Shown here piece after piece: positions 1 to 23,742 of a DNA stretch of 28,121 bases. The position numbers and the translations under genes were made by a program. The stretch comes from a virus, in the IMG/VR virus record IMGVR_UViG_3300006810_000287, positions 1 through 28,121 of that record. One strand, 5' to 3'. Positions within the stretch are counted from its first letter, which is position 1; every line of letters begins with the position of its first letter. Under the pieces are notes generated by a model. That model did not search any database. It was not told the DNA's origin and saw only the letters and a list, made by a program, of their open reading frames with translations.

Positions 1-3000
1 ACCCTTGGCCATGACCGCTCTAGACTGGCCATCCTCGCGAAGAAGCTTTCCAATCTGCTTGTTTTCAATGACTTTGCGAGTAACTTTTTCTTTCGAGCCA
101 TACTCCTCTGTAACGTCGAATCTAAACTTGGTACTATCAAATGATTTGTTTGGCTCTCTGGTCTCCTCTACAGTGCCTAAGCTAAACGTCTTCCCTTTGG
201 CTCTCACTTCTAGTACGCCGTCGCTTGCGCTTCTGTACACAAACAGTGGGGATTCGTCAGCATTCTTAACCTCTGGGTCGAGCATAGACAGCTGCATAGA
301 GCTACGCTTCATACCTGTAGGATCAGGCTTGTCCATCGCCTCCACCATCTGCATCTCAAGATCAGCTTCGGCTTGCATAGCTCTCTCGATGGCAATCTCG
401 TCCATCCTATTAAGAGCCATGTAAGATCCATCACTAGCAATACGGTCGAGGATAGGGTCATAAGGCGTGTATGACGTTTCCAATGTCAGGCCAGGAGCTC
501 TCGTGTTGAGAGTCTGTCCTGCAGCGTAAAGGATCTGCCCCGCCTGAGCGACAGTAATCTTGCGCTCTGGGTTGAACTCGTTGTATATGCCGACAGCATC
601 CTCTATAATCCTTTGCCTAGCGGCAAATTGCTTTTTCTTTTTGCCCTTGCTAGAGTTCTTTCTCTGAGGCATAGCCTTAAAGATCTCGTTAAAGATCCTA
701 GACGCCGCCTCTCTGTCATTAGGGACTGGGGCGTTTTTCTTTTCCTGAATTAGCTTCAGAGCAAGAATTTTTGGAGGTGTATTTGGATTTACATCAAGGA
801 ACTCAGCGACCTTATAGATCTGATCGGTGGTCATATAGTTGAAGTCAAACTGAATCTCGCCAGATAGAAGGGCCATCTGATCCATGACGTGCAAGTCCTG
901 TGTCAATACAGACTCGTCACCCATGAGGTTGATAGCCCAAGCTCCGAGCTTAAATGTCTCTCCTCCTCCAAACTTGTTCTGAGCGAACTTCATGTCCCCA
1001 GATTTAGATCGCATCTTCTCTTTGAAGTTGTTGCCTCTGAACTCCCCTGTAGCTGGATCGTAGTATCTCAAGGCGACCTCAGAAATATCCTTCAAGTGCA
1101 TGAGCATAGAAGCTCTACGTCCTGACATCTTGTTGTAGATATCTCCGAACATCTCGTCGTCTTTAGTGCCAAGCCTGTCAAGCTCGCCGTCAAGGAATAG
1201 TTTGCCATCACTCTTTATGTTCCCCATCATGTGATAGAACAACTTAGTAGCGATCTGCAAGTTTGTCTCGGCTGGCAAGCCGTTTGAAGTAAAGGCGACA
1301 ATCATGTCAAAGAGCGGAGCAAAGTCTGCTACATTGTCAGGCATATTAGGATCGCTTGCCAAGTTTGACAAGAACCCCTCCCTAGAGGTTCTGTAGTTCC
1401 CAATGAGATCTAAGATACCCTCTGGTCCATCGTTGATGGCCACCTCGAACTCTCTTGCCATAAGTCTAGCTACGTCCTGTTCGGTTGGGTTAGGCCCTAG
1501 GATCTCAGCAGCTTGCATAGCCAAGAACTCAAGGTCTGTAACCTTGCTGTCCAAAGCGCACTTATCTGCATAGTAGCCACAGAGAATCTGTCTCTTGATA
1601 CTTCTGAAGTCCTCAAAGTCCATTGCGCTAGAGGACTGTGCCAGCTGACGCAACACGAACGAACCCCTAGAAGACGCCTCCATTTTGCCATCGTCGAACC
1701 CTTTGTCGCTAAGAGCGTCGTTGATTTTATTGACGTCCTCCATAGACATATTCTTCCACCATCTGTACCCTTGCTTACCCTCTCCGATAAGCTCAGATGC
1801 AGCATTAGTTATGTCCTCCATAGTCGTCGGCTGATTAGGAGAGATGTAGTTCTTAACTCTATTTAGCAAAGCGTGCTTAGCAGCCTCCATCTTTCTCGCA
1901 TCTGTAGCCGCTATCTGCTCTTCAGTAGGTGGCTTCTCTGGGAACTTCCACTTCCTTATAGCTGCGACGTTCACTGGAGTTCTCACTCCATCTTTGATCA
2001 TGTCTGCATTTTCAATGAAGACACCCTTAGACTCCATGAAGTTGAACCAGTTAATGAAGTGCCACTTGCCATTGAACTTTTGCTGACCGACTCTAGATGG
2101 CAGCGGCCCTCCAAATCTGTCAAGTGTGGGTTTGTTAAACTCCATCGTAAATGACTCTTCATCAGGCAACTTACTTGGGTATAGCTGTGCAGACTTTCTG
2201 GTTTTGATATCCCCCTCCGCGCTTTCTACCGTAAACGTTTGACCGCTCTTTACGAGATCTACATACTTGCTCAGAATAGACAGAGCACTAGAGTCGCTAG
2301 TAATCTTCAGCTCTCTCCCTGCTCTACCCATGGCTGCATCAATCGTTCTGTTGATGAACAGCTTGAGCTTAGCGCCCATATCCAACTTCACTTTTTGATC
2401 GCCACTGATTGCGCTAACAATCTCGACTATGACCTCGTCTAATACTTCAAGTTCATTTCTTACATTACCATCGGAATCTTTTTTCTCGTACTGAGCAGCC
2501 TTAGAGTTGATTCTATCCATCAACGCCTTATCCGACTTAACCAATCCTATTAGATTGTTCTTTAGCCCCCTGAGCTTTTGAGGGTTTTCTGCATAGATCT
2601 TAGCGAACAGAGGGGATAGGTTTGCATGAAGCACTTCCTCAAGGATGGTCTCCTGAAAGCTTTTTGTTCTGTCGAACCCAGCCTCTGCTTCGGCGGCCAT
2701 GTTTCTCTTGATTCCCTCTGGGGAAATGTGAACCATATTTCCGTCAAAATCAACAAACCCACCCATACCTGCACCACCAGCAGTGTCGCCTGACTTAGCG
2801 GTAGTGTGAACCCTGAAAGTAAATCCAGGGTTAATAAGCGCTAAAGCCTTAAGGACTCTGTTCACTGAGGCAGCGTCCTGAACTGACAAACCAAAGTCAC
2901 CTTCTCTTACCCCGAATGTCCCATCTTTATTTGGCTTGAGGTCTTGGAATTCACCTTCAATCCCCAAATTGTTTGACGGCTCTCCGACGAGAGTGTCACC

Positions 3001-6000
3001 ATCCTCTCTAGTAGGAGCTTCTTGAGTAACCTCTGGGCTGGCCCAGAAAGCATCTTCTTTAATCTCCTTTCCATCTACGTCCTTGTATTCTCCCTGTACC
3101 GATCTAGCGAACGCTACGGTGCTTCCGTCCTCAAGCTTTACTGCGGTGAACATGTCGTCACCATCTCTAACCTGATCTCTAAACTCGACTTCACCTAGAG
3201 AAGCTACGCTTCCGTCCGCCTTAACCAATCCCCCAGGAGTAACCACGCTATGCTGAGCAAACTCACGAGCAAACTCTTTAGCCTGATCTACAGTCATTCC
3301 CTCGACGATGAGGCTGTTCTCCCCCTTGCCGTCGTATCTTCCCTTCACTTCATAGAACTTGAGTCCTTTACTTCTCAGGTAGTTACGCGCCCGCTGAAGT
3401 CGCTGAAGGTTAGCTTCTTCACTGAGGGTAGAATTATTTGGATTCTCTGCCGTAAGTATGGCATAGTCAGAGGATGCGAGTATAGCCTCAAGACCTTCTC
3501 TTGTAAGCTCTGTTGCTTCTTGATCTGTAAGAGCTTCGTTTACCCACGTATCCGACTGCCTTCTTTCTGCTTCCGCAGCCTTCTGAGATTGGCTCTCAGT
3601 CATTGCCTGCGATCTAGACACAGCATCGAAATCCATGCCTAGGGCATCAGCCAGTCTAGCCTCGATATCTCTTATTCCAGCGAGTGCAGACTCTGTGTCT
3701 TCTACGCTACCAAGCTCGGTGCCCTCAGCGCTCTCCATTGCTTCAATAGCGGCGTTAGCCTCACTGACCAAAGCTTGAGCCTCTCTAAGTCTCTTGACCA
3801 CCTCACCTCTGCGACGAGCCATTTCTCTGATGTTGTTCTCATTAAAGAGCTCGGTACCTTCCGCTTCGTATTCAGCCTCAATGCCAGCTTCCAAAGACTC
3901 AATCTCTCTCTGCATAGCCACAAGCTTTGCAGCAACAGAGTGCTCGTTGTACCTTCTTCTTTCATCTAAGGTCAAGTCCAAGCTTTCTTCTTTGAAGTTT
4001 CCTTCAAGCTCCATACGCTTAGCCACGAGGCTCTCCATTTCCTCACGGATGTTTTCTCTCGACTTTTCGTCTGCTACACTTTCAAAAGCAATGGATCTCT
4101 GAGCTATAGCCAAGTCTAGTCTACGCATCTGATCAAACACCTCTGGATGACGCAATGCCATCATTGTGTAGAACGGACGCTTCCTGTCTTGCCTAGCTCT
4201 CTCTTCCGTCTCGATAGCCTTTATTTGAGCCTTAATAAGCTTCTGCTTTTGAGGGTCAGACGTAGCCTTAAGCTCACCCATAAGACCTTCAATAACAGTC
4301 TTAGACTTTGACGATGAATTGTCTATGTCTGCATTAGCCAAGGTAGCAGCCTTTGTTGCGGCTTCCAGCGCGACGAGGTCTGCGCTAGGACCACCAAACA
4401 TCTTTTGTCCAGTTTTGCCGCCAATAAACCCACCAATAACGGCACCCATAACACCAGCATCAACAATTTGATTCCAGTAGTTTGAAGGCAAGTCCTCTCC
4501 AGTCAAGCCAGCTCTAGCTACGCCTTGTATGGCAGCCACGCCCATCTCCTCTGCCGCTTCAATAGGCATGGCAATGCCGTATCTGTATGCGTTGCCTACA
4601 GCAAGATTTTTGGCCGCATCGAAAGCAGACTTAAATCCTTGTTCTTGAAATCCTTTCTGAGCTGCCTTTAACAAAACTCTAGAGCCAATGCCGCTTGTTA
4701 CCCAAGCAAAAAGCGCGTCAGCGCTTCCATTTACAGCACCCCAGCCGAGACGCTGCCAGTCGTTTTCAAATGCTGGATCATCCTTTGCTTCCATGTAAGC
4801 CGAGGCACCACTACCTGAGCCAAGTACACCCCATCCTACTGGTCCAGCCGCTGCCAGGACGACCGAGGGTATACTACCGCCAAGGCCCTGTGTAAATGAA
4901 TTCGCAGCAGCCCAGGCATTACCCTTCAAAACGTTTTCTGAAAATCCTTCTGGCACCTTTACCTCCAAGGCTCTCAGCGCTTCCTTAGTTCCTTTTGAGC
5001 TTTCTCTGTATAATTCTGAAAGGTTCCTTCCTCCTTCTAGGCCACCTATAGCTGTACCCATAGCACCCGCCGCCAAGTACATCGCTGGATCAAGCGTCAG
5101 ATCAATACCTGTATTGACTGCAGCGCTTGGTACCCCCAACACGGTTTGCAAAAGCTTTCCTACCTGGGTATCAGCCTCTCCGTACATGCCATTTCCGTCG
5201 AGGTCTGAGTTAATGCCGAAGTTAAACCACAGGTAATCCGTAATCTCCTTAACCTTTTCTGGATCATTTGCAATCTCCTCTGGAAGCTGTTCTAAGATCT
5301 GGGCGCGGAATGCCTCGTTCTTTGCTTTTCTAGCCTTGTCTCCGTATTGGGATTTAATCCCTCTTATACCTTCAGCTATGTAGTCCTCGGTTATAGCAAC
5401 ATTCCCCTTACCTCTGTATTCACCAGATCTGCGCTCAGCGGAGGTTGTCCGACGCATATCTCCTACTTGATTGGCATCAATAAAAGCCTGAACTTCTTCT
5501 TCGATCTCTTTGTTGATAGCCTCTTTGTCTTGAGGTCTATCAAATTCTTTAGAGTTGAAGTAAGAGTCTACATAGGGCAGCGGGTCAAACCCATATTCAT
5601 CATCGAGCTTTTTAGCTCCGTTCTTCCACTCCTCTACTTTTTTCTCCTCTCTTTGCTTTACAAAGTTCTCTGTGTACTGACCAAGTGTTTCAGCAATCTC
5701 ATCTCCCCACAGGCTTCTTACGATGGTTGTGCCTGCTTGCATTCCAGGAAAGAAGCCAGAGGCAACCGTTGAGGCAAACTCATCAGCAGCTTCTCCTGAG
5801 AACCAGCTCCCATCCGAAGAGTCGGACTGAGAATCTTTTTTTTTTACATCTCCGAAATAAGCATTGTAGAACTCATCTTCATCAAGATCGGTCATCTCCT
5901 GGCCCTTCACGTAGGTATACAAATCACCAAACTTCTCTGGATCTGAGTACGCATCGTGAAAAGACTGAGCATCAAGGTCGGTCATTCCCTGACCATTGAC

Positions 6001-6033
6001 GTAGTCATAGAGTTGTTGAAACTGTTCGTTCAT
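1..6033 (-). CDS. Giant internal virion / ejected cargo protein (3' end outside window)
   Basis: One uninterrupted reading frame of 2011 codons runs from ATG at 6033 to the window edge, so the C-terminus is missing. The start lies one base after the stop of the upstream gene (TAAAATG). Residues 8-67 are two tandem 30-residue repeats (LYxYVxGQxMTDLD). Three Gly/Ala-rich hydrophobic stretches follow near residues 321-331, 386-411 and 523-541, for example AGVMGAVIGGFIGG. A charged, coiled-coil-like region spans about 560-760. Near 1110-1200 there is a zincin-like layout: VHISPEG, then EEVLH (1132-1136), then NELEVLDEVIVEI; the first His of HExxH is Glu. Around residue 1670 is a patch reading FKLGAWAINLMGDESVLTQD. 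Size, mosaic make-up and position after the tail gene fit the very large polyvalent or cargo proteins that phages package and inject. Catalytic activity is not established. Function is inferred; the reading frame is certain. Confidence 0.85.
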   Translation of the reverse strand, partial: MNEQFQQLYDYVNGQGMTDLDAQSFHDAYSDPEKFGDLYTYVKGQEMTDLDEDEFYNAYFGDVKKKDSQSDSSDGSWFSGEAADEFASTVASGFFPGMQAGTTIVRSLWGDEIAETLGQYTENFVKQREEKKVEEWKNGAKKLDDEYGFDPLPYVDSYFNSKEFDRPQDKEAINKEIEEEVQAFIDANQVGDMRRTTSAERRSGEYRGKGNVAITEDYIAEGIRGIKSQYGDKARKAKNEAFRAQILEQLPEEIANDPEKVKEITDYLWFNFGINSDLDGNGMYGEADTQVGKLLQTVLGVPSAAVNTGIDLTLDPAMYLAAGAMGTAIGGLEGGRNLSELYRESSKGTKEALRALEVKVPEGFSENVLKGNAWAAANSFTQGLGGSIPSVVLAAAGPVGWGVLGSGSGASAYMEAKDDPAFENDWQRLGWGAVNGSADALFAWVTSGIGSRVLLKAAQKGFQEQGFKSAFDAAKNLAVGNAYRYGIAMPIEAAEEMGVAAIQGVARAGLTGEDLPSNYWNQIVDAGVMGAVIGGFIGGKTGQKMFGGPSADLVALEAATKAATLANADIDNSSSKSKTVIEGLMGELKATSDPQKQKLIKAQIKAIETEERARQDRKRPFYTMMALRHPEVFDQMRRLDLAIAQRSIAFESVADEKSRENIREEMESLVAKRMELEGNFKEESLDLTLDERRRYNEHSVAAKLVAMQREIESLEAGIEAEYEAEGTELFNENNIREMARRRGEVVKRLREAQALVSEANAAIEAMESAEGTELGSVEDTESALAGIRDIEARLADALGMDFDAVSRSQAMTESQSQKAAEAERRQSDTWVNEALTDQEATELTREGLEAILASSDYAILTAENPNNSTLSEEANLQRLQRARNYLRSKGLKFYEVKGRYDGKGENSLIVEGMTVDQAKEFAREFAQHSVVTPGGLVKADGSVASLGEVEFRDQVRDGDDMFTAVKLEDGSTVAFARSVQGEYKDVDGKEIKEDAFWASPEVTQEAPTREDGDTLVGEPSNNLGIEGEFQDLKPNKDGTFGVREGDFGLSVQDAASVNRVLKALALINPGFTFRVHTTAKSGDTAGGAGMGGFVDFDGNMVHISPEGIKRNMAAEAEAGFDRTKSFQETILEEVLHANLSPLFAKIYAENPQKLRGLKNNLIGLVKSDKALMDRINSKAAQYEKKDSDGNVRNELEVLDEVIVEIVSAISGDQKVKLDMGAKLKLFINRTIDAAMGRAGRELKITSDSSALSILSKYVDLVKSGQTFTVESAEGDIKTRKSAQLYPSKLPDEESFTMEFNKPTLDRFGGPLPSRVGQQKFNGKWHFINWFNFMESKGVFIENADMIKDGVRTPVNVAAIRKWKFPEKPPTEEQIAATDARKMEAAKHALLNRVKNYISPNQPTTMEDITNAASELIGEGKQGYRWWKNMSMEDVNKINDALSDKGFDDGKMEASSRGSFVLRQLAQSSSAMDFEDFRSIKRQILCGYYADKCALDSKVTDLEFLAMQAAEILGPNPTEQDVARLMAREFEVAINDGPEGILDLIGNYRTSREGFLSNLASDPNMPDNVADFAPLFDMIVAFTSNGLPAETNLQIATKLFYHMMGNIKSDGKLFLDGELDRLGTKDDEMFGDIYNKMSGRRASMLMHLKDISEVALRYYDPATGEFRGNNFKEKMRSKSGDMKFAQNKFGGGETFKLGAWAINLMGDESVLTQDLHVMDQMALLSGEIQFDFNYMTTDQIYKVAEFLDVNPNTPPKILALKLIQEKKNAPVPNDREAASRIFNEIFKAMPQRKNSSKGKKKKQFAARQRIIEDAVGIYNEFNPERKITVAQAGQILYAAGQTLNTRAPGLTLETSYTPYDPILDRIASDGSYMALNRMDEIAIERAMQAEADLEMQMVEAMDKPDPTGMKRSSMQLSMLDPEVKNADESPLFVYRSASDGVLEVRAKGKTFSLGTVEETREPNKSFDSTKFRFDVTEEYGSKEKVTRKVIENKQIGKLLREDGQSRAVMAKG
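5833..6012 (-). repeat. Tandem 30-residue repeat at N-terminus of giant virion protein
   Basis: Two adjacent 90-bp units encode residues 8-37 and 38-67 of the giant protein. They share the pattern LYxYVxGQxMTDLDxxxFxxAY. The first is LYDYVNGQGMTDLDAQSF and the second LYTYVKGQEMTDLDEDEF. DNA similarity is visible at 5971 and 5881 (atcaaggtcg against atcaagatcg). A duplicated short helical unit at the extreme N-terminus could be a packaging or docking signal; that role is inference. Confidence 0.85.
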
Positions 6034-8613: not shown

Positions 8614-11600
8614 TTACCCGTAGTGGTTGGGTGAATCGGAGATGTGAGTGTTTATAGCGTATAGCTCGTACTGAGAAGTAGAGTCATTTTCAAGCTTTAC
8701 CTTAGCCCAAGCCCCACGGATTGGATCACCGTTGACTTCGTTAGTACTTTGAGACGCAAACCATTCAAATTGATTGGCGCTGTATGAAGCTCCTCCGTAG
8801 TCATTAAACGTCAACTCCTTACCGTTTACTTTTTTTATAGTTAGATCCGTCGGAACGAATACACCCCCCAATAGAGGTCCTGTAATCATATTCTTCTTTA
8901 GAGGCAGTCTATCCAACTTGTTGCTAAATGTTATCGAACCCGTGCTTGAGTCTATAACAGACGGAATTGCATCAACGTTACTACCTAGAGGGATCAGCGT
9001 TGCCACGTTATCAGCTTCGTCTCTACCGAAAGCAGAGTACCTAACACCTTCTTTAGTTTCAAAGCTCCTTATCCTACCAGAGCTACCTAGGTCAGTAGTT
9101 ACCCCTCCACTAGGTGACTCCCAGTTGTCTGAATCTGTCTCCAAAGACAGGGCGTCAAAGACCTTTACTTTGCCTGGAACAGCGTTGACAACAAAAGTTA
9201 TAGAACTCGAATTACTAGTCCCGTAAAATTTAGCCCTATCAGCTGAGTCGGTGTGCTCGTGCATTAGATGAGCTATGTTGTTGTAATACGGATCGCCACT
9301 CAAGGCTCCGTTCAGACGGTAAAATGAAAACAGTCTATTGTCTACAGTCGCATACCTGTCAGGTATAAAGCTGTATCTAGACGCCCACCCTCTTGTTTTT
9401 TCAGAGTACCCGTAAGTCTTTGAGTCAGAGTCTCCTGTATCAAACGTAAAGAAAACTACCTGATCTCTTGGATCGTACCCAGAAACTATGTTGACAGGAG
9501 AAGCCTTGGACTTGTAAGTTTCAAACACATCCTCAAACGCACTGCGCATACCGATGTCTGATATAGAGACCACGTTGTTCCCCTGAACCATGCCTATCTC
9601 TTCTCTATCATAATCAATGAAATACACCGCAGATCCTGTGTTCACCACAGAGCCTACGTACGGGTCTGACAAACCAAAGTCTGCAGAAGCGTACATGGTA
9701 GACCCAAATGGATTCTCAGACACAGCAACAGTGCCACCACCATCAGCATAAGAAATTACGTTCTTATTTACTGTAGTCAAAGAAACCTTTTGCTGCTGTA
9801 ACCCTATAAGCCTGTCGTTATAGTCCCCGATGTAGTACAGACTCCCGTATTTCTTATCGAAGTTAAAGAAGTTGGCTTTCGCTGGATTAAAGCTAGATAG
9901 CGTCAGGATATTGATATCTGACTGATACTCGTCACTATGAACTATAGAGCTTCTATAAAATCTTTCTCCATCGTTTTTTACCTCAACGTGGGTTCTGCCC
10001 TTAGACCAAACTTCGCTATCTTCAATATAGTCAGATATATAAGAAGTCTCTATTAAAGAGTCATTGAACCCCCAGGCTTCTGGTGGGCGACCTGTATTGA
10101 AGACCAAGGTGCTTGGGGTGTCAAGATTGTAGTAACCAAGGTTTGGCCCGTTTACTGAGGAGTACCTCATGTAAGCATCGCCTGCAATAATTATAGGTTG
10201 GCTATGCTTAGATATATCATGACACTCACCTATCTCATACCAAACCCTATCAGAGGACTCATCTCTAGGCGTCAGTATCTCTACTAACGCCTTGCTCCAA
10301 TCTATATCTGAAGGAGTATCTCCGTTTGAGTATGTTATAGGCTCCCCTATAAACGGATACTCGGTGTCTGGGTCTACATAATTTACATCATCAGTAAAAG
10401 GAGAGTCACCGTTATCCCAGCGTGAGTGACTAATAGAGTGCCAGTCATAACCTGGAAACTTCTCGATATCTCCATCGTCATTGTACGGCAATCCCGCCCC
10501 AAGAGGTTCACATACCAAAAATCTTCCCTGCATAATCTTTGGCATCTTCTTGGGTGAAGAATTTTTATTTTTAGGGTAGAGGGGGTTGTCTTCATCGTCG
10601 TAATAAGTAACTTGATCAATGACTCTAAAAGACATCGGCTTATCAGAAGACGCTTTCTTGAAGAAGTACTGACCTATAAGCCCAGGACCCTCTGTAGGGG
10701 ATTTCATTTGAGCGCCGCATATAATCCTCAATATATCGCCAGCCTGATAGTTGTAATCTATGATCGCACCTTTTTTCTTTTTGAATTCAGCAAGCGTCGT
10801 CAAGGGTATGTACACATACTTGTTTTTTACATCTACGACAAGATGCTGCTGCAGCTCTTTTTCCCACAAAGTGATGGCGTTGGCCCCGCCGCCTCTGATG
10901 CTAGCTGTTGTTATTGTGGGTGATGCAGTTTCGTTCGCATTCTCCCACTCTCCCTGATCAAAAGCCGCTCTAGCCTCTCCCGTACTGTAACTAAACATAC
11001 GAGAAAAAGATCCCATCCCAGGGTATACGAACTGAAATGACTTAGCCCATGAGGGAGGTGCGGAAGTCATCTCCACCTCACACAAAGAAGGCGCAAAAAT
11101 TTCAGCGCTGTTGTTTCTAGAATCGCCAGACATAAACTCTGAATAAAAAGAACCTATCTTATTTACAAAGCCTGGTCTGTTAAACTCGTCAAAATATACA
11201 ATACCTATGTCGTGAGAGGACCCAGTTTTAAACGAGCTCACGCAGTTTCTCGTTTGAACCTTAATGCTTTTTGAAGACGTCGATCCTGATACACCAGAAA
11301 GGTTGGTCTGTATACCGCTTACGGTTGCGTAAGGTACAGTGACATTCGTATTTGTCTTGGGTATCTTATCAAACTCTACCTCAGAAGAATTATCTATAGC
11401 CGCAAAAATGAACTTTCTATGCTGCCTCTTAGTGAAGGCCGTAAAGACCTCACCAGAAGAAGCGTTAGTCTCGTCCGAAGCTGGGCTTAAATCAGCGCCG
11501 TAAACCCTTCTTATTGCGGGTATAATTCGAATACCAGTGTGAGCACTGGCCGTGCCTATGTCTTCGGCAAATAAGCTCCACTCTACCTTTACGGTGCCTA

Positions 11601-12654
11601 CAAAATCAACTGTGTCTCCCTCTGCAAACGTAGAAGACCCACTCGGTGCGTAGTCTAAAACCATGGGCGCCTCACCATCGGCTATCGCGTAAGAGAAAGT
11701 AGCTGTTATTTCTTTAGCATTTATTGCCGAGATCATCTCTTTGTATAAGCCGTGCTGATCTGTTTCATGTAGTGACAGCTTATGATTAAACTCGAACTTT
11801 ATGTCGTGGTCTTCGGTAAGGGTTAGTTGATTGCTAGATCCACCCCCTATGTGGCCTCCGTACTTGTATCCACTGCTGTCTTTTACAAATCCATACAGGA
11901 TGGGGGCCGTTCCAGAAGCTCCGTAGATCTGTACGTTACTTGGTAATTCTAAATCAAAGCTTAGATTTACTTCGGTACCGTATTTATATTTATCACTGGA
12001 GCCAATACCTGACGCATTAGCAAGCTCAACGTTGATACCTGCATACGCGGTGTGATTGGTAACTATGGCGTTAGTATCTGTAGTGCCAGAGGCAAGGGTC
12101 TGGCGATGCGGTCTCCCGTTGCCAACTCCTGTATAGTTCCAAACTCTTTCAGTTAGTGTCCCGCTAACCGCATTGCCATTTGAATCTCCATTGTCATATC
12201 CCTCCTTATAGTATGAGTATGTCAATCTGTTTCCAGATATCGTCTGACCCATAGCGTATTTAGGAACATTGTCGTAGGGTTTGAGGACCGTATCTTGATC
12301 GACTGCCCTATACGCCGAATCGTTGTAGAACCTATATATCCTAGAGTGGTGATTATACACTTCCCTGTCAACGCCCATAACCTTTCTGGTTATGCTTTGA
12401 TCTGGTGGGAATTCGTCCACAACAAACATCTCTGAACTATTGCCGTTTCTTCCTAGAATACGTATGTTTTTGACGTCTGGCCTAAAAAAGTCTGAACCAG
12501 TATATGAGGCGTAATTAGTAGTTATCACACATACGTTATCCTCGTTTGAGGGTGTAGACTGACTAGCGGATTGAATTCCTTGAGTCGGTATAACAGAAGA
12601 ATATGCTAGCTTCGAGTACGGAGATATAGCAGAAACCTCTCCGTCTTTATACAC
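8614..12654 (-). CDS. Tail nozzle / 'muzzle'-type structural protein, main part after in-frame stop
   Basis: A 1346-codon reading frame begins at a GTG at 12654, but clear coding sequence continues upstream without a break to the TAA at 12730-12732. The extra in-frame residues include VTFETDEGIGVNNFAKKSF and FAIQLVYKDGEVSAISPYS. They form the usual 'FxxDxxxGxNNFxxKxFQF...YKDGExSxxSPxS' junction of a conserved phage tail protein. The frame upstream of the TAA is the same one, so this is the C-terminal ~1370 residues of a protein of about 1574 residues. The rest is long, beta-rich and Ser/Asp/Gly/Tyr-rich, with no membrane segment. In crAss-like phages a protein of this size and position forms the tail-end muzzle, and the P22 gp10-like 'stabilization protein' label is often used; both comparisons are inference. 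The GTG start is doubtful because it would remove conserved residues. First in-frame ATG is about 75 codons further on. Confidence 0.75.
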   Translation of the reverse strand: MYKDGEVSAISPYSKLAYSSVIPTQGIQSASQSTPSNEDNVCVITTNYASYTGSDFFRPDVKNIRILGRNGNSSEMFVVDEFPPDQSITRKVMGVDREVYNHHSRIYRFYNDSAYRAVDQDTVLKPYDNVPKYAMGQTISGNRLTYSYYKEGYDNGDSNGNAVSGTLTERVWNYTGVGNGRPHRQTLASGTTDTNAIVTNHTAYAGINVELANASGIGSSDKYKYGTEVNLSFDLELPSNVQIYGASGTAPILYGFVKDSSGYKYGGHIGGGSSNQLTLTEDHDIKFEFNHKLSLHETDQHGLYKEMISAINAKEITATFSYAIADGEAPMVLDYAPSGSSTFAEGDTVDFVGTVKVEWSLFAEDIGTASAHTGIRIIPAIRRVYGADLSPASDETNASSGEVFTAFTKRQHRKFIFAAIDNSSEVEFDKIPKTNTNVTVPYATVSGIQTNLSGVSGSTSSKSIKVQTRNCVSSFKTGSSHDIGIVYFDEFNRPGFVNKIGSFYSEFMSGDSRNNSAEIFAPSLCEVEMTSAPPSWAKSFQFVYPGMGSFSRMFSYSTGEARAAFDQGEWENANETASPTITTASIRGGGANAITLWEKELQQHLVVDVKNKYVYIPLTTLAEFKKKKGAIIDYNYQAGDILRIICGAQMKSPTEGPGLIGQYFFKKASSDKPMSFRVIDQVTYYDDEDNPLYPKNKNSSPKKMPKIMQGRFLVCEPLGAGLPYNDDGDIEKFPGYDWHSISHSRWDNGDSPFTDDVNYVDPDTEYPFIGEPITYSNGDTPSDIDWSKALVEILTPRDESSDRVWYEIGECHDISKHSQPIIIAGDAYMRYSSVNGPNLGYYNLDTPSTLVFNTGRPPEAWGFNDSLIETSYISDYIEDSEVWSKGRTHVEVKNDGERFYRSSIVHSDEYQSDINILTLSSFNPAKANFFNFDKKYGSLYYIGDYNDRLIGLQQQKVSLTTVNKNVISYADGGGTVAVSENPFGSTMYASADFGLSDPYVGSVVNTGSAVYFIDYDREEIGMVQGNNVVSISDIGMRSAFEDVFETYKSKASPVNIVSGYDPRDQVVFFTFDTGDSDSKTYGYSEKTRGWASRYSFIPDRYATVDNRLFSFYRLNGALSGDPYYNNIAHLMHEHTDSADRAKFYGTSNSSSITFVVNAVPGKVKVFDALSLETDSDNWESPSGGVTTDLGSSGRIRSFETKEGVRYSAFGRDEADNVATLIPLGSNVDAIPSVIDSSTGSITFSNKLDRLPLKKNMITGPLLGGVFVPTDLTIKKVNGKELTFNDYGGASYSANQFEWFASQSTNEVNGDPIRGAWAKVKLENDSTSQYELYAINTHISDSPNHYG

Positions 12655-12732
12655 CAGCTGAATAGCAAACTGAAAAGACTTTTTTGCGAAGTTGTTTACA
12701 CCGATACCTTCATCAGTCTCAAAGGTGACTTA
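12655..12732 (-). other. In-frame TAA and conserved coding residues splitting the tail protein
   Basis: The stop at 12730-12732 (context TGC CCC TAA GTC ACC) is in the same frame as both flanking reading frames. The 25 codons after it carry conserved protein sequence (ETDEGIGVNNFAKK, then SFQFAIQLV). No ATG, GTG or TTG in this frame lies between the TAA and the GTG at 12654. One base change (for example AAA, CAA or GAA to TAA) would explain it. Options are a recent nonsense mutation, a sequencing or assembly error, or real stop readthrough. Confidence 0.85.
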
Positions 12733-13341
12733 GGGGCAGATTTGAGTTGATGGTTTTGCGGTGGACAAAAGTATATTTTCCGCACCATCAGTAAGGTCGT
12801 CTCTCAAGTCATAATCCCCAGCTATAGCTCTGTCAGCGTTAATCTTCCTGGGCGGATGAAGTAGGCTATCCCCTGTGAAATACACAATAGTCTCAAGGCT
12901 TGTTGTCTGAGAGAAATACCCGCTGACAACAGTGGCCGTGATATTCATTTCATCACCAAAGCCCATATCTCTTTTGAGGACCTCTACGTAGTAGCCGTCA
13001 TCTTTAGAGTATCTGTAAATTGCGTCCTCATTGTCGGCAGCGTATCCTGTGTCGGAATCGTCTTTACTAACGAAGAAGTATATGTGACCTCTAGAGTCGT
13101 CTTCTACAGTCCCGATGACCTTTGTTCCAGAGCCATAAAAAGGAAATCCATCGTTGCGCTCAAGGATTGTTGAATCAAAGTAAATTTTCTCCGTGCCTCT
13201 TACGTTTTTGATCACACCGCTAGTCCCTTCTCCATCATCCGAGACAGTTACATTCAGCGCATCAACCATATCAGATGGTTGCAGCATCTTCTCGTCTGTG
13301 TCAGAAACAAGACGTCTAGGTATGTTCTTACTTGTAGCCAT
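12730..13341 (-). CDS. Tail nozzle / 'muzzle'-type protein, N-terminal fragment
   Basis: 203 aa from ATG at 13341, overlapping the stop of the upstream connector gene (TAATG). The N-terminus (MATSKNIPRRLVSDTDEKML, then DMVDALNVTVS) and the later YFTGDSLLHPPRKINADRAI have the layout of the N-terminal domain of large phage tail proteins: a beta-propeller-like region, then a 'YFTD...PRKIN' segment, then a Pro-rich hinge. The hinge here is KPSTQICP and is followed at once by the TAA. The frame stays open without shift for another 1372 codons, so this is the first eighth of a single ancestral gene rather than a complete protein. If the stop is real and not read through, the product would lack the main body and probably not assemble. 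Confidence 0.75.
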   Translation of the reverse strand: MATSKNIPRRLVSDTDEKMLQPSDMVDALNVTVSDDGEGTSGVIKNVRGTEKIYFDSTILERNDGFPFYGSGTKVIGTVEDDSRGHIYFFVSKDDSDTGYAADNEDAIYRYSKDDGYYVEVLKRDMGFGDEMNITATVVSGYFSQTTSLETIVYFTGDSLLHPPRKINADRAIAGDYDLRDDLTDGAENILLSTAKPSTQICP

Positions 13342-14171
13342 TAGCCCTTAGGTGCTTGCTTGTAGTTCTTTCTAATTGTCTTCAACGCCTCCTCCCTAGT
13401 GAAGGTCTTCATGCGAGAGTTAGCTAGTCTACGCTCATTGTAGTACTCCGCTCTTGCTCTCGCCTTCTCGTTGGCTGGTACGTTCTTCTTGCGCTCAATG
13501 ATCTTATAGTACATGTACGCACGAAGAGCCTCTTCTGTGTATACGTGAACCTGAGGATTCGTAGACCTAGCTTCGTCAGCTATGTACTCCATTACAATCT
13601 CAGACACGTTGTTTGCGTTGGACAACTCTATTCTGTTCTGATCCAAGTTGATGCGGAACTCACCGTTTTGAAACCCACCCCCCAAGCCGTACAGCCTGCC
13701 AGCTACGTTTTCATACACGTAGTTTCTAAATATCCTAGAGTCAAATCCCTGAGCGATGCTATCTGCAGTGCTTCTAGACGTCCCAGCTGTAGCTGTCTTT
13801 GAGTCCTCTCTGTCAAACAGACCGTCACCATCGGTGTCGTAGTTATTTCCAGAAGCGTCTTCAGAATACTTTTGAGAGTAGTTTATATTCTTGTTTTCGT
13901 TAAGAACGTAAATTAACCCATCAGCTCCTACCACACCGATCTTAGTCCAATCTACATAATCATCAGGGAGCACAGCTGTATCTGTAGACGAGTCTACATC
14001 TATCTTAATAGACCTTATTCTGTTTGCGATATCAAACCCTAACTCCCTAACCCCTCTCAAAGCAAAAGCCCTGATCGTGGTGTCAGGGACATTGCTTACA
14101 TAGTCATCACCATCCAAAGTGATTATGAAGTCATTGATTACCTCGCTAAGCTGTATATAGTTTCTCGCCAT
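13341..14171 (-). CDS. Head-tail connector / ring-like protein with a Ca-loop-like insert
   Basis: 276 aa from ATG at 14171. The N-terminal half is helical then beta (IRAFALRGVRELGFDIANR, then LPDDYVDWTKIGVV), a pattern I associate with neck or tail-tube-adaptor proteins of Bacteroidota podoviruses. Residues 111-123 (YDTDGDGLFDRED) form a thrombospondin type-3-like or EF-loop-like acidic motif inserted in a polar loop. The C-terminal third is basic and helical (YMYYKIIERKKNVPANEKAR). It lies 8 bp after the previous gene and overlaps the tail protein gene by TAATG. This places it in one transcript with the other neck and tail genes and supports a role in joining portal and tail. Exact ring number or partner cannot be said from sequence. 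Confidence 0.75.
   Translation of the reverse strand: MARNYIQLSEVINDFIITLDGDDYVSNVPDTTIRAFALRGVRELGFDIANRIRSIKIDVDSSTDTAVLPDDYVDWTKIGVVGADGLIYVLNENKNINYSQKYSEDASGNNYDTDGDGLFDREDSKTATAGTSRSTADSIAQGFDSRIFRNYVYENVAGRLYGLGGGFQNGEFRINLDQNRIELSNANNVSEIVMEYIADEARSTNPQVHVYTEEALRAYMYYKIIERKKNVPANEKARARAEYYNERRLANSRMKTFTREEALKTIRKNYKQAPKG
13803..13838 (-). other. Acidic DxDxDGxxDxxD loop in connector protein
   Basis: Codes for DTDGDGLFDRED (residues 112-123). The spacing of acidic residues is that of calcium-binding thrombospondin type-3 and EF-hand-like loops. It sits within a low-complexity, polar stretch and is likely surface exposed. Metal binding is inferred from the motif. Confidence 0.6.
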
Positions 14172-19229: not shown

Positions 19230-19469
19230 TTACTTCCTGTACTTTGCGACCTTTTTCTTGATCTTATCGGGCTGAGAAACAAACTGCTTACCCTTCTTGT
19301 TGCCCTCGGCTTTAGCTCTGTTTGTCGCAGCCTTCTCGCTGGGACTCAATGCTTTCCAGGCAGCATCAGGCAAGTAGCGCTTCTTCCCTTTAGACGGTTT
19401 GCCGTCAGAGGTTCTCCACTTCTGTGCCGTCCATTTACGAAGACTCTTCTGTGACTTAGATAATCCCAT
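19230..19469 (-). CDS. Small basic conserved phage protein, 79 aa
   Basis: ATG at 19469 overlaps the upstream stop (TAATG). The sequence is extremely rich in Lys and Arg and nearly free of acidic residues. Visible blocks are SLRKWTAQKWRTSDGKPS, KKRYLPDAAWKALSPSEK and KKGKQFVSQPDKIKKK. The 'KWRTxxGKxS...RYLPxxAxxALSxxE...GKQFVxQP' layout is one I remember from short proteins of marine phages and large algal viruses, of unknown function. High charge and capsid-region context suggest DNA binding or neutralisation inside the head, but this is inference. It is the last of a run of tightly packed tiny genes. Confidence 0.75.
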   Translation of the reverse strand: MGLSKSQKSLRKWTAQKWRTSDGKPSKGKKRYLPDAAWKALSPSEKAATNRAKAEGNKKGKQFVSQPDKIKKKVAKYRK

Positions 19470-19645
19470 TAGTTCTTGTAACCTCCGCCTGCTTTCTTAT
19501 ACCTAGCTGCAAGAAGCTGTGCTTTACGAGCCGACCACTGCCCAGGCTTACCTCCTTTGCTACCAGCTTTGATGCGCTGGAACAGTCTTTTACGCATTCC
19601 AGGCTTGGTGTAGTTGCCTGCTTCATTGACGCGAGACTTACCCAT
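19469..19645 (-). CDS. Small basic conserved phage protein, 58 aa
   Basis: A 59-codon frame from ATG at 19645 to TAA at 19469-19471. It overlaps the upstream gene by 8 bases and the downstream ATG by TAATG. The product is MGKSRVNEAGNYTKPGMRKR at the start, then GGKPGQWSARKAQLLAARYK and an ending GGGYKN. The 'GGKPGQWSARKAQLLAxRYKxxGGGYK' block is one I recall as a recurrent short module in phage and algal virus proteins, so the frame is very likely real despite its length. Net charge is strongly positive. The function is unknown; it shares its context with the other tiny basic proteins. Confidence 0.75.
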   Translation of the reverse strand: MGKSRVNEAGNYTKPGMRKRLFQRIKAGSKGGKPGQWSARKAQLLAARYKKAGGGYKN

Positions 19646-19823
19646 GGTCTACCATTTTAAACTTAGCTTCCTTTACAGCACCAGGATGCGGCTTGTACTT
19701 ACCCTTCATGAGGTAGTACCTGCCACTCTCTTCCATCCAGTGATATCCATCTGGTGGTGGGACGCTCATGGTCTTCTTGCTGATCTTCAGCTTGCCTCCT
19801 TTGTTGTACTTGACTGCTTTCAT
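19638..19823 (-). CDS. Small basic protein, 61 aa
   Basis: ATG at 19823 lies one base after the upstream stop (TAATATG), and the end overlaps the next gene by 8 bases. The sequence is Lys-rich at both ends (MKAVKYNKGGKLKISKKTM and KGKYKPHPGAVKEAKFKM) around a central PPPDGYHWMEESGRYYLMK. The Pro-rich segment followed by aromatic residues suggests a compact beta fold, with a 'GxYYLM' strand. I do not recognise a named family. Its place in an overlapping chain of tiny basic genes between fibre and capsid genes suggests a shared structural or DNA-associated role. Confidence 0.68.
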   Translation of the reverse strand: MKAVKYNKGGKLKISKKTMSVPPPDGYHWMEESGRYYLMKGKYKPHPGAVKEAKFKMVDHG

Positions 19824-19824
19824 A

Positions 19825-20115
19825 TTACCACTTTACTTTGTCTGCCCAGTAAGCCGCACTCATCTTACCCTTCTTAATGTTTTTGGCATGACGAGCTTTG
19901 AAGCTTGCACGCTTTTTTTGTCTAGCTGGAGTTGGGTTTGACTCCGTTACAGTATCTGCTCCCTTCTCTCCAAAGCGAATAAGCTTAACCTTGTTGCCTT
20001 CTTTGGCTAGAACCATGTGAGACTTTTTAGGGTGCTTAGGGGTGGCCTTGGGTTTGTTCACCCCTTTAAGGCTATGCTTCTTAAGTAAGTTTTTTACTCT
20101 TGTGTTTTGAGACAT
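19825..20115 (-). CDS. Small basic conserved phage protein (SAAYWADKVKW ending), 96 aa
   Basis: The start is taken at ATG 20115, four bases after TATATTTG; a longer frame would translate the motif. The N-terminal third is Lys/Pro-rich (NKPKATPKHPKKSHM), the middle has a beta hairpin-like VKLIRFGEKGADTV, and the C-terminus is KARHAKNIKKGKMSAAYWAD followed by KVKW. The 'RHxKNIxKGKxSAAYWAxKVKW' ending is one I recall from short proteins of many marine phages; its function is not known to me. The protein has strong positive charge. It starts a transcription unit that includes the other tiny basic genes. Confidence 0.78.
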   Translation of the reverse strand: MSQNTRVKNLLKKHSLKGVNKPKATPKHPKKSHMVLAKEGNKVKLIRFGEKGADTVTESNPTPARQKKRASFKARHAKNIKKGKMSAAYWADKVKW

Positions 20116-20119
20116 AATA

Positions 20120-20127
20120 CAAATATA
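20120..20127 (-). promoter_or_regulatory. TATATTTG, Bacteroidota -7-type motif, 4 nt before ATG
   Basis: The minus strand reads TATATTTGTATTATG, directly after the stop of the 40-aa gene (20129-20131). The four-base spacing equals that at 8589 and 14938. It would drive the cluster of tiny basic genes. No clear -33 TTG at the usual distance. Confidence 0.52.
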
Positions 20128-20128
20128 A

Positions 20129-20251
20129 TCAAGAACCAAGCCCCCAAAGATCTGAGTTTAGTGATCGAACAATCTCGTTGATTTTGTCGATAATCTCTTG
20201 ACTTGATGCTGAGCTATCTAGCTCTTGAATTTGTTGCTGAGGTGTTGCCAT
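20129..20251 (-). CDS. Short protein coupled to the fibre gene, 40 aa
   Basis: A 41-codon frame from ATG at 20251, overlapping the fibre stop (TAATG), to TGA at 20129-20131. The product MATPQQQIQELDSSASSQEI continues as a helix (IIDKINEIVRSL) and ends DLWGLGS. The exact stop/start overlap, seen at three other junctions in this window, and the filling of an otherwise empty 110-bp gap support it. The composition is acidic to neutral and amphipathic, unlike the basic genes that follow. It may be a small partner or chaperone of the fibre, but no family is recognised. Confidence 0.6.
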   Translation of the reverse strand: MATPQQQIQELDSSASSQEIIDKINEIVRSLNSDLWGLGS

Positions 20252-23200: not shown

Positions 23201-23742
23201 TGAGTGGCGACGTCTCCGTCTTGAGCGGTGATCGTAATAAGATCCGAACCTACAGATCCGTCCTCAAGGAGTACCTTCTTCCAAGCAGTGTCGTCACCAA
23301 AGTAAATGTTTCCGCTTGTATCAGCGTACAAGCCACCCTCTATAACAGCTGGTGTCGCTTGATTCTTAATCTTAACAGCGCCATCGAGGTTTATATAACC
23401 AGTGCCGTTTGCTACAATATTTATGTTCTGATTAGCCGAGTCTGTCGTTATGCTGTACGTCTGAACGTCGAGATTACCTCCAAGGTGAGGACTGGTATCT
23501 TCTTGCACGGAGGCCAGTCTGTCAGCCCAAGTTGTGTCATAATTAGCTCCACTTGCTTTTACAAGAGACTGACCAGTGGTTCCTCCAGCAGCCACACCTT
23601 GGCCTGGAACTCCAGCAGAGCCAAGATTTATAGTCCCACTAATAACCCTCTGAGTGGGCGCAGTAATACTAATCGTATTTACCTGCGGGGCCGAGATTGA
23701 TATAACACTGGCCTGAGTAGATGATACGATTATGGAACTCAT
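20251..23742 (-). CDS. Large repeat-rich fibre protein, candidate head fibre
   Basis: 1163 aa from ATG at 23742, which overlaps the upstream stop (TAATG); a frame 15 codons longer would overlap that gene by 46 bases and is less likely. The N-terminus is Ser/Ile/Thr-rich, then GSAGVPGQGVAAGGTTGQSL. Paired motifs EDTSPHLGGNLDV and EDTTPQLGGDLDV mark about residues 81 and 580. Residues ~405-535 look like a small beta domain (VKNVSGGPLPKGTPVHVTG to GIVMGAG) common in phage fibres. Then come repeats of 'LPSSDGxxGQVLTTDGxGxLSF' and 'TNLGxxDQTLxxDRT'. The last 150 residues differ (KVRWDFQHKPGGSTAYSLDF) and look like a terminal beta-sandwich receptor-binding domain. A trimeric fibre is likely. Its place between portal and capsid genes, not after the tail genes, suggests a capsid-attached fibre. 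Confidence 0.8.
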   Translation of the reverse strand: MSSIIVSSTQASVISISAPQVNTISITAPTQRVISGTINLGSAGVPGQGVAAGGTTGQSLVKASGANYDTTWADRLASVQEDTSPHLGGNLDVQTYSITTDSANQNINIVANGTGYINLDGAVKIKNQATPAVIEGGLYADTSGNIYFGDDTAWKKVLLEDGSVGSDLITITAQDGDVATQEKIRISDGTNSDDVVIEAGTNMSISRSGDTITLNNTLANTTLTQEEVEDYAGNLIDSSNTGEQTGITVTYQDATNDVDFVVDDQTIEASDSNGDQSVVRLTMSNPTADDTVDITAGSNISFGSITANGFTISSDGTASDVALTDESSDTTCFPVFATDATGDQTLHTDASGLTYDSSTETLEVKNLKVNDASNPYTLPSADGEDGQVLTTDGAGVVSFAYPKTISESVKNVSGGPLPKGTPVHVTGSVGNLAEVIAADAATNYPAHFVLDEDLADDGEGQGIALGFINNVDVPDASIYTEGQTVYLGASGGWVTTKPTGTNAIQNLGIIIKVNTSTDKISGIVMGAGRANDVPNIPNGQAWIGNASGVATPTTLATVATTGEYSDLIGTPAGGLENVVEDTTPQLGGDLDVNGNAITGSTVSILGSTGELMITATENGPVALRYDNNLKLSTKSDGVNITGELEADSLDIDGNAEISGTLNTHTIPGGTGTIALTSDITDTNTNISTGDLTATGSHVYDIAGETQEIDVNGGEFKIDDLSHEYLRATGSELNLQGLQFPSSDGTTGQAITTNGAGVLSFSTFTDTNTNLGNSDQTLATDRTIDLDGNTLTFDGAVSDAAKITNNGEAEFRRRITAKGYTSGPGSVLFNNSDNTYGVSVQAPGSLSATYSLTLPTTNGDADQVLTTNGFGVLSWSDAGADTNLGSDDQTLSADRTVEMGGNNLIFDNSSTEVARITPQGYVQATGRSIVNGNGSVGGQVIIKDADSSNSVTLTVPSTVSSNLTLALPSSDGSSGQVIQTDGSGNLSFVDNGFPKSLTTLTGRFQFDADDDNRTIICGNSTFGTNYYLWSTEIFDTVSSGTVDTTTQNMSNIYAGPSFRMPELAKVRWDFQHKPGGSTAYSLDFRAQIWSIGTFPSTGSQSTWTLRADRTFTSGSSTSLWDTNVATTTSAIPEGHYVIFVVGLDNQTISSTVYLSQQGTVSLVL
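20779..21528 (-). repeat. Imperfect fibre repeats (three units)
   Basis: Units at 21528-21364, 21186-21022 and 20847-20779 encode variants of FPSSDGTTGQAITTNGAGVL, LPTTNGDADQVLTTNGFGVL and LPSSDGSSGQVIQTDGSGNL. The first two also carry DTNxNLGxxDQTLxxDRT. A further copy lies at 22611-22543 (LPSADGEDGQVLTTDGAGVV). DNA of the copies has drifted, so the repeats are old and held by protein function, probably as rungs of a beta-helical shaft. Confidence 0.75.

Follow-up and report, generated by a model that had tools for sequence, protein, structure and literature searches.

A single in-frame TAA in an otherwise intact muzzle gene of a Crassvirales phage contig

The muzzle, the tail-tip protein of Crassvirales phages, has been solved structurally for phicrAss001 (gp44; PDB 7qok and 7qol), in which the gene order is terminase, portal, capsid, ring proteins and muzzle. 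The muzzle likewise follows a ring gene in Cellulophaga phage phi38:1 (gp097; Callevirus) and in the Flavobacterium elemo phages, where it is encoded by one unbroken ORF each (1,328 and 1,495 codons, respectively, stop to stop). Stops within late structural genes have been described in the same order: in gut crAss-like phages, readthrough or reassignment concerns TAG or TGA, extends over many genes and is often accompanied by suppressor tRNAs (PMC7886860; PMC9523058). The locus analyzed here has the gene order of phicrAss001, but differs from the recoded gut phages in that it contains one TAA in one gene and uses TAA as a normal terminator.

The stretch of DNA that we analyzed (hereafter the window) corresponds to one complete public virus record, 28,121 bases long, and is a fragment that spans the structural part of the phage. 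The muzzle frame occupies positions 8614-13341 on the minus strand and comprises 1,575 codons, which are open except for a TAA at codon 204 (12730-12732). The 5' part of the gene (12733-13341, minus strand) contains 203 sense codons counted from the ATG at 13341 and corresponds to the N-terminal region and the first β-strands, before a predicted strand at residues 204-208. The 3' part (8614-12729, minus strand) continues in the same frame for 1,371 sense codons to its own terminal TAA at 8614-8616. The first-pass annotation had placed the TAA in frame with the 203-codon part, as the reading frame confirms, and had counted 1372 open codons after it; the frame is indeed open, but this figure includes the final stop. 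A virion structural gene matching PHROG 13977 (13341-14171, minus strand) lies beside the muzzle gene in the position of a ring protein, and its TAATGG end overlaps the muzzle ATG. The muzzle gene is thereby placed directly after ring-type genes within the structural block, and neighboring genes matched PHROG terminase, portal, capsid-type and virion structural families. No second muzzle copy, intact or otherwise, was present within the 28,121-base record. Elsewhere in the window, an open-ended ORF of more than 2,000 amino acids with a DUF3293 domain (1-6033, minus strand) occupies a place equivalent to that of an 11 kb gene of the elemo phages, which also carries DUF3293, and four consecutive small lysine/arginine-rich ORFs without Pfam matches are found at 19230-20139 (minus strand).

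The interrupted gene is the muzzle gene of a Crassvirales phage. Its downstream part matched the Pfam families crAss_MUZ (PF25731) and crAss_MUZ_C (PF25729) with 58.6 and 32.6 bits, respectively, against a curated cut-off of 27 bits for each, and a match to PHROG 14478 extended across the stop (residues 10-392). These matches indicate that the downstream frame is not a chance open frame. When muzzle residues 1-420 were modeled with AlphaFold2 by reading through the stop, the mean pLDDT was 75.9, and a Foldseek search with the model retrieved the phicrAss001 muzzle (7qol_P, E = 8.6e-8; 7qok_A, E = 9.1e-8), whereas no other solved structure matched below 1e-3. The two proteins thus have common Pfam families and an N-terminal propeller/Ig-like fold, but identity with gp44 is ~15% over the structural match, and the TAA at codon 204 is found in the window copy. 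Since sequence searches of the PDB with the muzzle protein and with its profile gave no match, the identity rests on Pfam and the fold. The muzzles of phi38:1 and the Flavobacterium elemo phages are alignable along their length, with 25-26% identity. In the AlphaFold2 model, the predicted strand 204-208 begins at residue 204, following the strands that make up the first part of the propeller, and by comparison with phicrAss001 the stop probably lies near the start of IG1.

Homology is continuous and gap-free in frame 0 across the stop in 51 aligned relatives, from KPSTQICP before it to VTFETDEG..NNFAKKSFQFA after it. This bears out the earlier view that one tail protein is split without a frameshift and that the sequence after the stop is its conserved continuation. 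Alignment of the joined product with homologues, which had been proposed as a check, gave one frame with no codons gained or lost, indicating a codon substitution rather than an indel or insertion. A frameshift at the CCCC run that precedes the stop is ruled out because frame-0 homology continues on both sides, and an intron or inserted element at codon 204 is ruled out by the gap-free alignment across this codon. All 51 relatives have a sense codon at position 204. The column is variable (the 20 closest relatives include T, S, E, D, N and L, with small polar or acidic residues being commonest), and the preceding proline is the common residue of the family at that place. A profile search of related loci recovered 150 distinct homologous N-terminal segments, 55,019 residues in total, all of them free of stops, while the same pipeline does recover the window's own stop at codon 204. 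Thus, the muzzle runs uninterrupted through the propeller and Ig domains in these segments, whereas it is broken here at codon 204. Nine structural queries likewise yielded no premature in-frame stop among ~399,000 homologous residues of relatives, an approximate figure (252,626 + 146,453) because the two sets overlap in some contigs and are not fully independent; stops were crossed only in the locus L148, where a tandem pair marks a genuine gene boundary. A search of viral contigs for close strains with a DNA pattern in which the stop codon was left open gave no match, with near-identical records possibly left out. Whole-protein searches retrieved no close muzzle relative, the best match having ~45% identity over the N-terminal part, and a ring-gene search of genome contigs found none. 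The ancestral state of this strain is therefore inferred from distant relatives.

The gene downstream of the stop is not decaying. When columns with the same residue in 19 or more of 20 relatives were taken as near-invariant, 108 of 117 were kept in the downstream part and 21 of 29 in the upstream part. As a close relative was lacking, an open-frame bound was used for dating in place of dN/dS. About 3.6% of substitutions would create a stop in the muzzle gene, and the absence of a second stop across 1,371 codons limits the neutral divergence since the change to below about 2%. As a single change suffices to turn any of 443 among the 1,574 muzzle codons into a stop, a nonsense event is cheap; the gene family is already known, and there is nothing unusual in an isolated nonsense codon. 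We consider it very likely that the TAA arose either as an error of the consensus or assembly in this metagenome contig or through a very recent nonsense mutation of a single genome, an error being somewhat more likely than a true mutation. The TAA would then be an unselected nonsense substitution that affects a single codon, the crAss-like muzzle gene being otherwise intact.

A general reassignment of TAA in the phage or its host has practically no chance of being correct. The in-frame TAA itself, and nothing else, speaks for it, but TAA terminates 16 of the 19 genes in the window (TGA ends three and TAG none), several of these stops overlap the start of the next gene, as in TAATGG, and the portal, capsid, terminase and ring genes have no internal TAA. 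TAA would stand as a sense codon in one internal instance only and is not avoided as a terminator. The genetic code is thus standard and a general code change is excluded, as the first-pass annotation had concluded from TAA gene ends at 23742, 20251, 19469 and 13341, all four of which are correct. Readthrough of this one stop, by a suppressor tRNA from the missing part of the genome or from the host or through inefficient termination after a proline codon, is quite unlikely, as is its expected outcome of a 203-residue product together with some full-length muzzle. It is possible in principle, since late-gene readthrough of TAG or TGA is known from Crassvirales and an alpha-group genome has a tRNA mutated to a TAA suppressor with TAA not reassigned (PMC7886860), and an intact, conserved downstream frame agrees with it. 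The window also covers the structural part of the genome only, and the tRNA genes of relatives lie upstream of terL, past the window's end. A tRNA-Arg (tct), often with tRNA-Ile (tat) or tRNA-Met, is found just upstream of terL in the loci L011, L029, L030, L060, L064, L067 and L075, a place that corresponds to just past the end of the window. Nothing here, however, points to readthrough. The stop is absent from every relative, both the 51 aligned and the 150 segments, and there is one such codon rather than many. Since TAA ends 16 of the 19 genes, the muzzle gene itself included, its suppression would extend most proteins. No tRNA was found in the window (28,121 nt, structural part), and the 52 related loci gave Arg, Ile and Met tRNAs only; neither set yielded a suppressor tRNA. 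RNA folding around the stop is no more stable than in shuffled sequences (z = +1.05), the stretch 3' of the stop is average for the muzzle gene, and no Rfam family was matched. The proline before the stop, being common in the family, provides no special context, and nothing in the muzzle family suggests that both a short and a long product are made. The earlier list of explanations (recent mutation, error or readthrough) therefore stands as a list, but its last member is unsupported because the stop occurs in no relative and falls in a variable column. It is very unlikely that a crAss-like phage is caught starting TAA suppression, with one ochre codon tolerated in an essential late gene and a TAA-reading tRNA supplied by the phage or host; in the literature that we read, ochre reassignment is represented only by a suppressor tRNA with no matching codon use (PMC7886860).

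It is hardly credible that the muzzle is assembled here from two separate proteins, the 203-residue N-terminal piece and a C-terminal piece made by re-initiation. The stop does precede the predicted strand 204-208, in the region of the phicrAss001 propeller-IG1 junction, and the C-terminal domain of the muzzle is a separate gene in some relatives. However, no ATG overlaps or closely follows the stop, and the first in-frame ATG, GTG or TTG is a GTG at 12654, 25 codons further on. A start there would lose N216, Q224, F225 and A226, which are near-invariant and lie between the stop and the GTG (12655-12729, minus strand). Re-initiation is thus unlikely; the lack of an in-frame start over 25 codons and the loss of conserved residues had both been noted before and hold. 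The natural splits are also of another kind, lying near residue 1,305, ~1,100 residues downstream of codon 204, at the boundary of the C-terminal domain, with an ATG 8-18 nt past the upstream stop. None of the 150 homologous segments is split at residue 204, which answers the question raised earlier of whether relatives encode two proteins at this stop. Separate C-terminal ORFs with such an ATG follow the main muzzle ORF in four relatives (L148:11066, L149:11591, L151:11933 and L167:12569), the main ORF of L148 and L149 terminating in tandem TAA TAA. In another relative (L171:9602-10970; MW202828), the main muzzle ORF and the separate C-terminal ORF flank a putative glycosidase gene.

The readings as an error or a fresh mutation explain all observations with fewer assumptions than readthrough. 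Premature stops are rare in comparable contigs, with none elsewhere in the ~399,000 residues, so that errors and defective variants are themselves uncommon, and the present case becomes ordinary only through being picked from a large scan. Contig IMGVR_UViG_3300046167_000515 (L134/L067) contains three frame changes in three structural genes (an R2-like gene, a 359-aa gene and the C-terminal part of the muzzle gene) and looks like an indel-prone assembly, indicating that assembly faults occur in this collection. Taken literally, the sequence would specify a 203-residue fragment without most of the β-propeller, both Ig-like domains and the crass domain. As most of the propeller and everything downstream would be lost, this product should not form a working tail tip. 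If the mutation is true, the sampled genome would probably be defective or a minority variant. Ordinary representatives of this phage would produce the muzzle as one protein of ~1,575 residues, as the relatives do.

For annotation, the ORFs at 8614-12654 and 12730-13341 represent one muzzle gene and not two tail proteins. A functional stop would provide evidence of ochre readthrough or of TAA reassignment at an early stage in Crassvirales, for which the cases that we found in the literature are TAG and TGA only. Early TAA suppression, if true, would be a first step to ochre reassignment.
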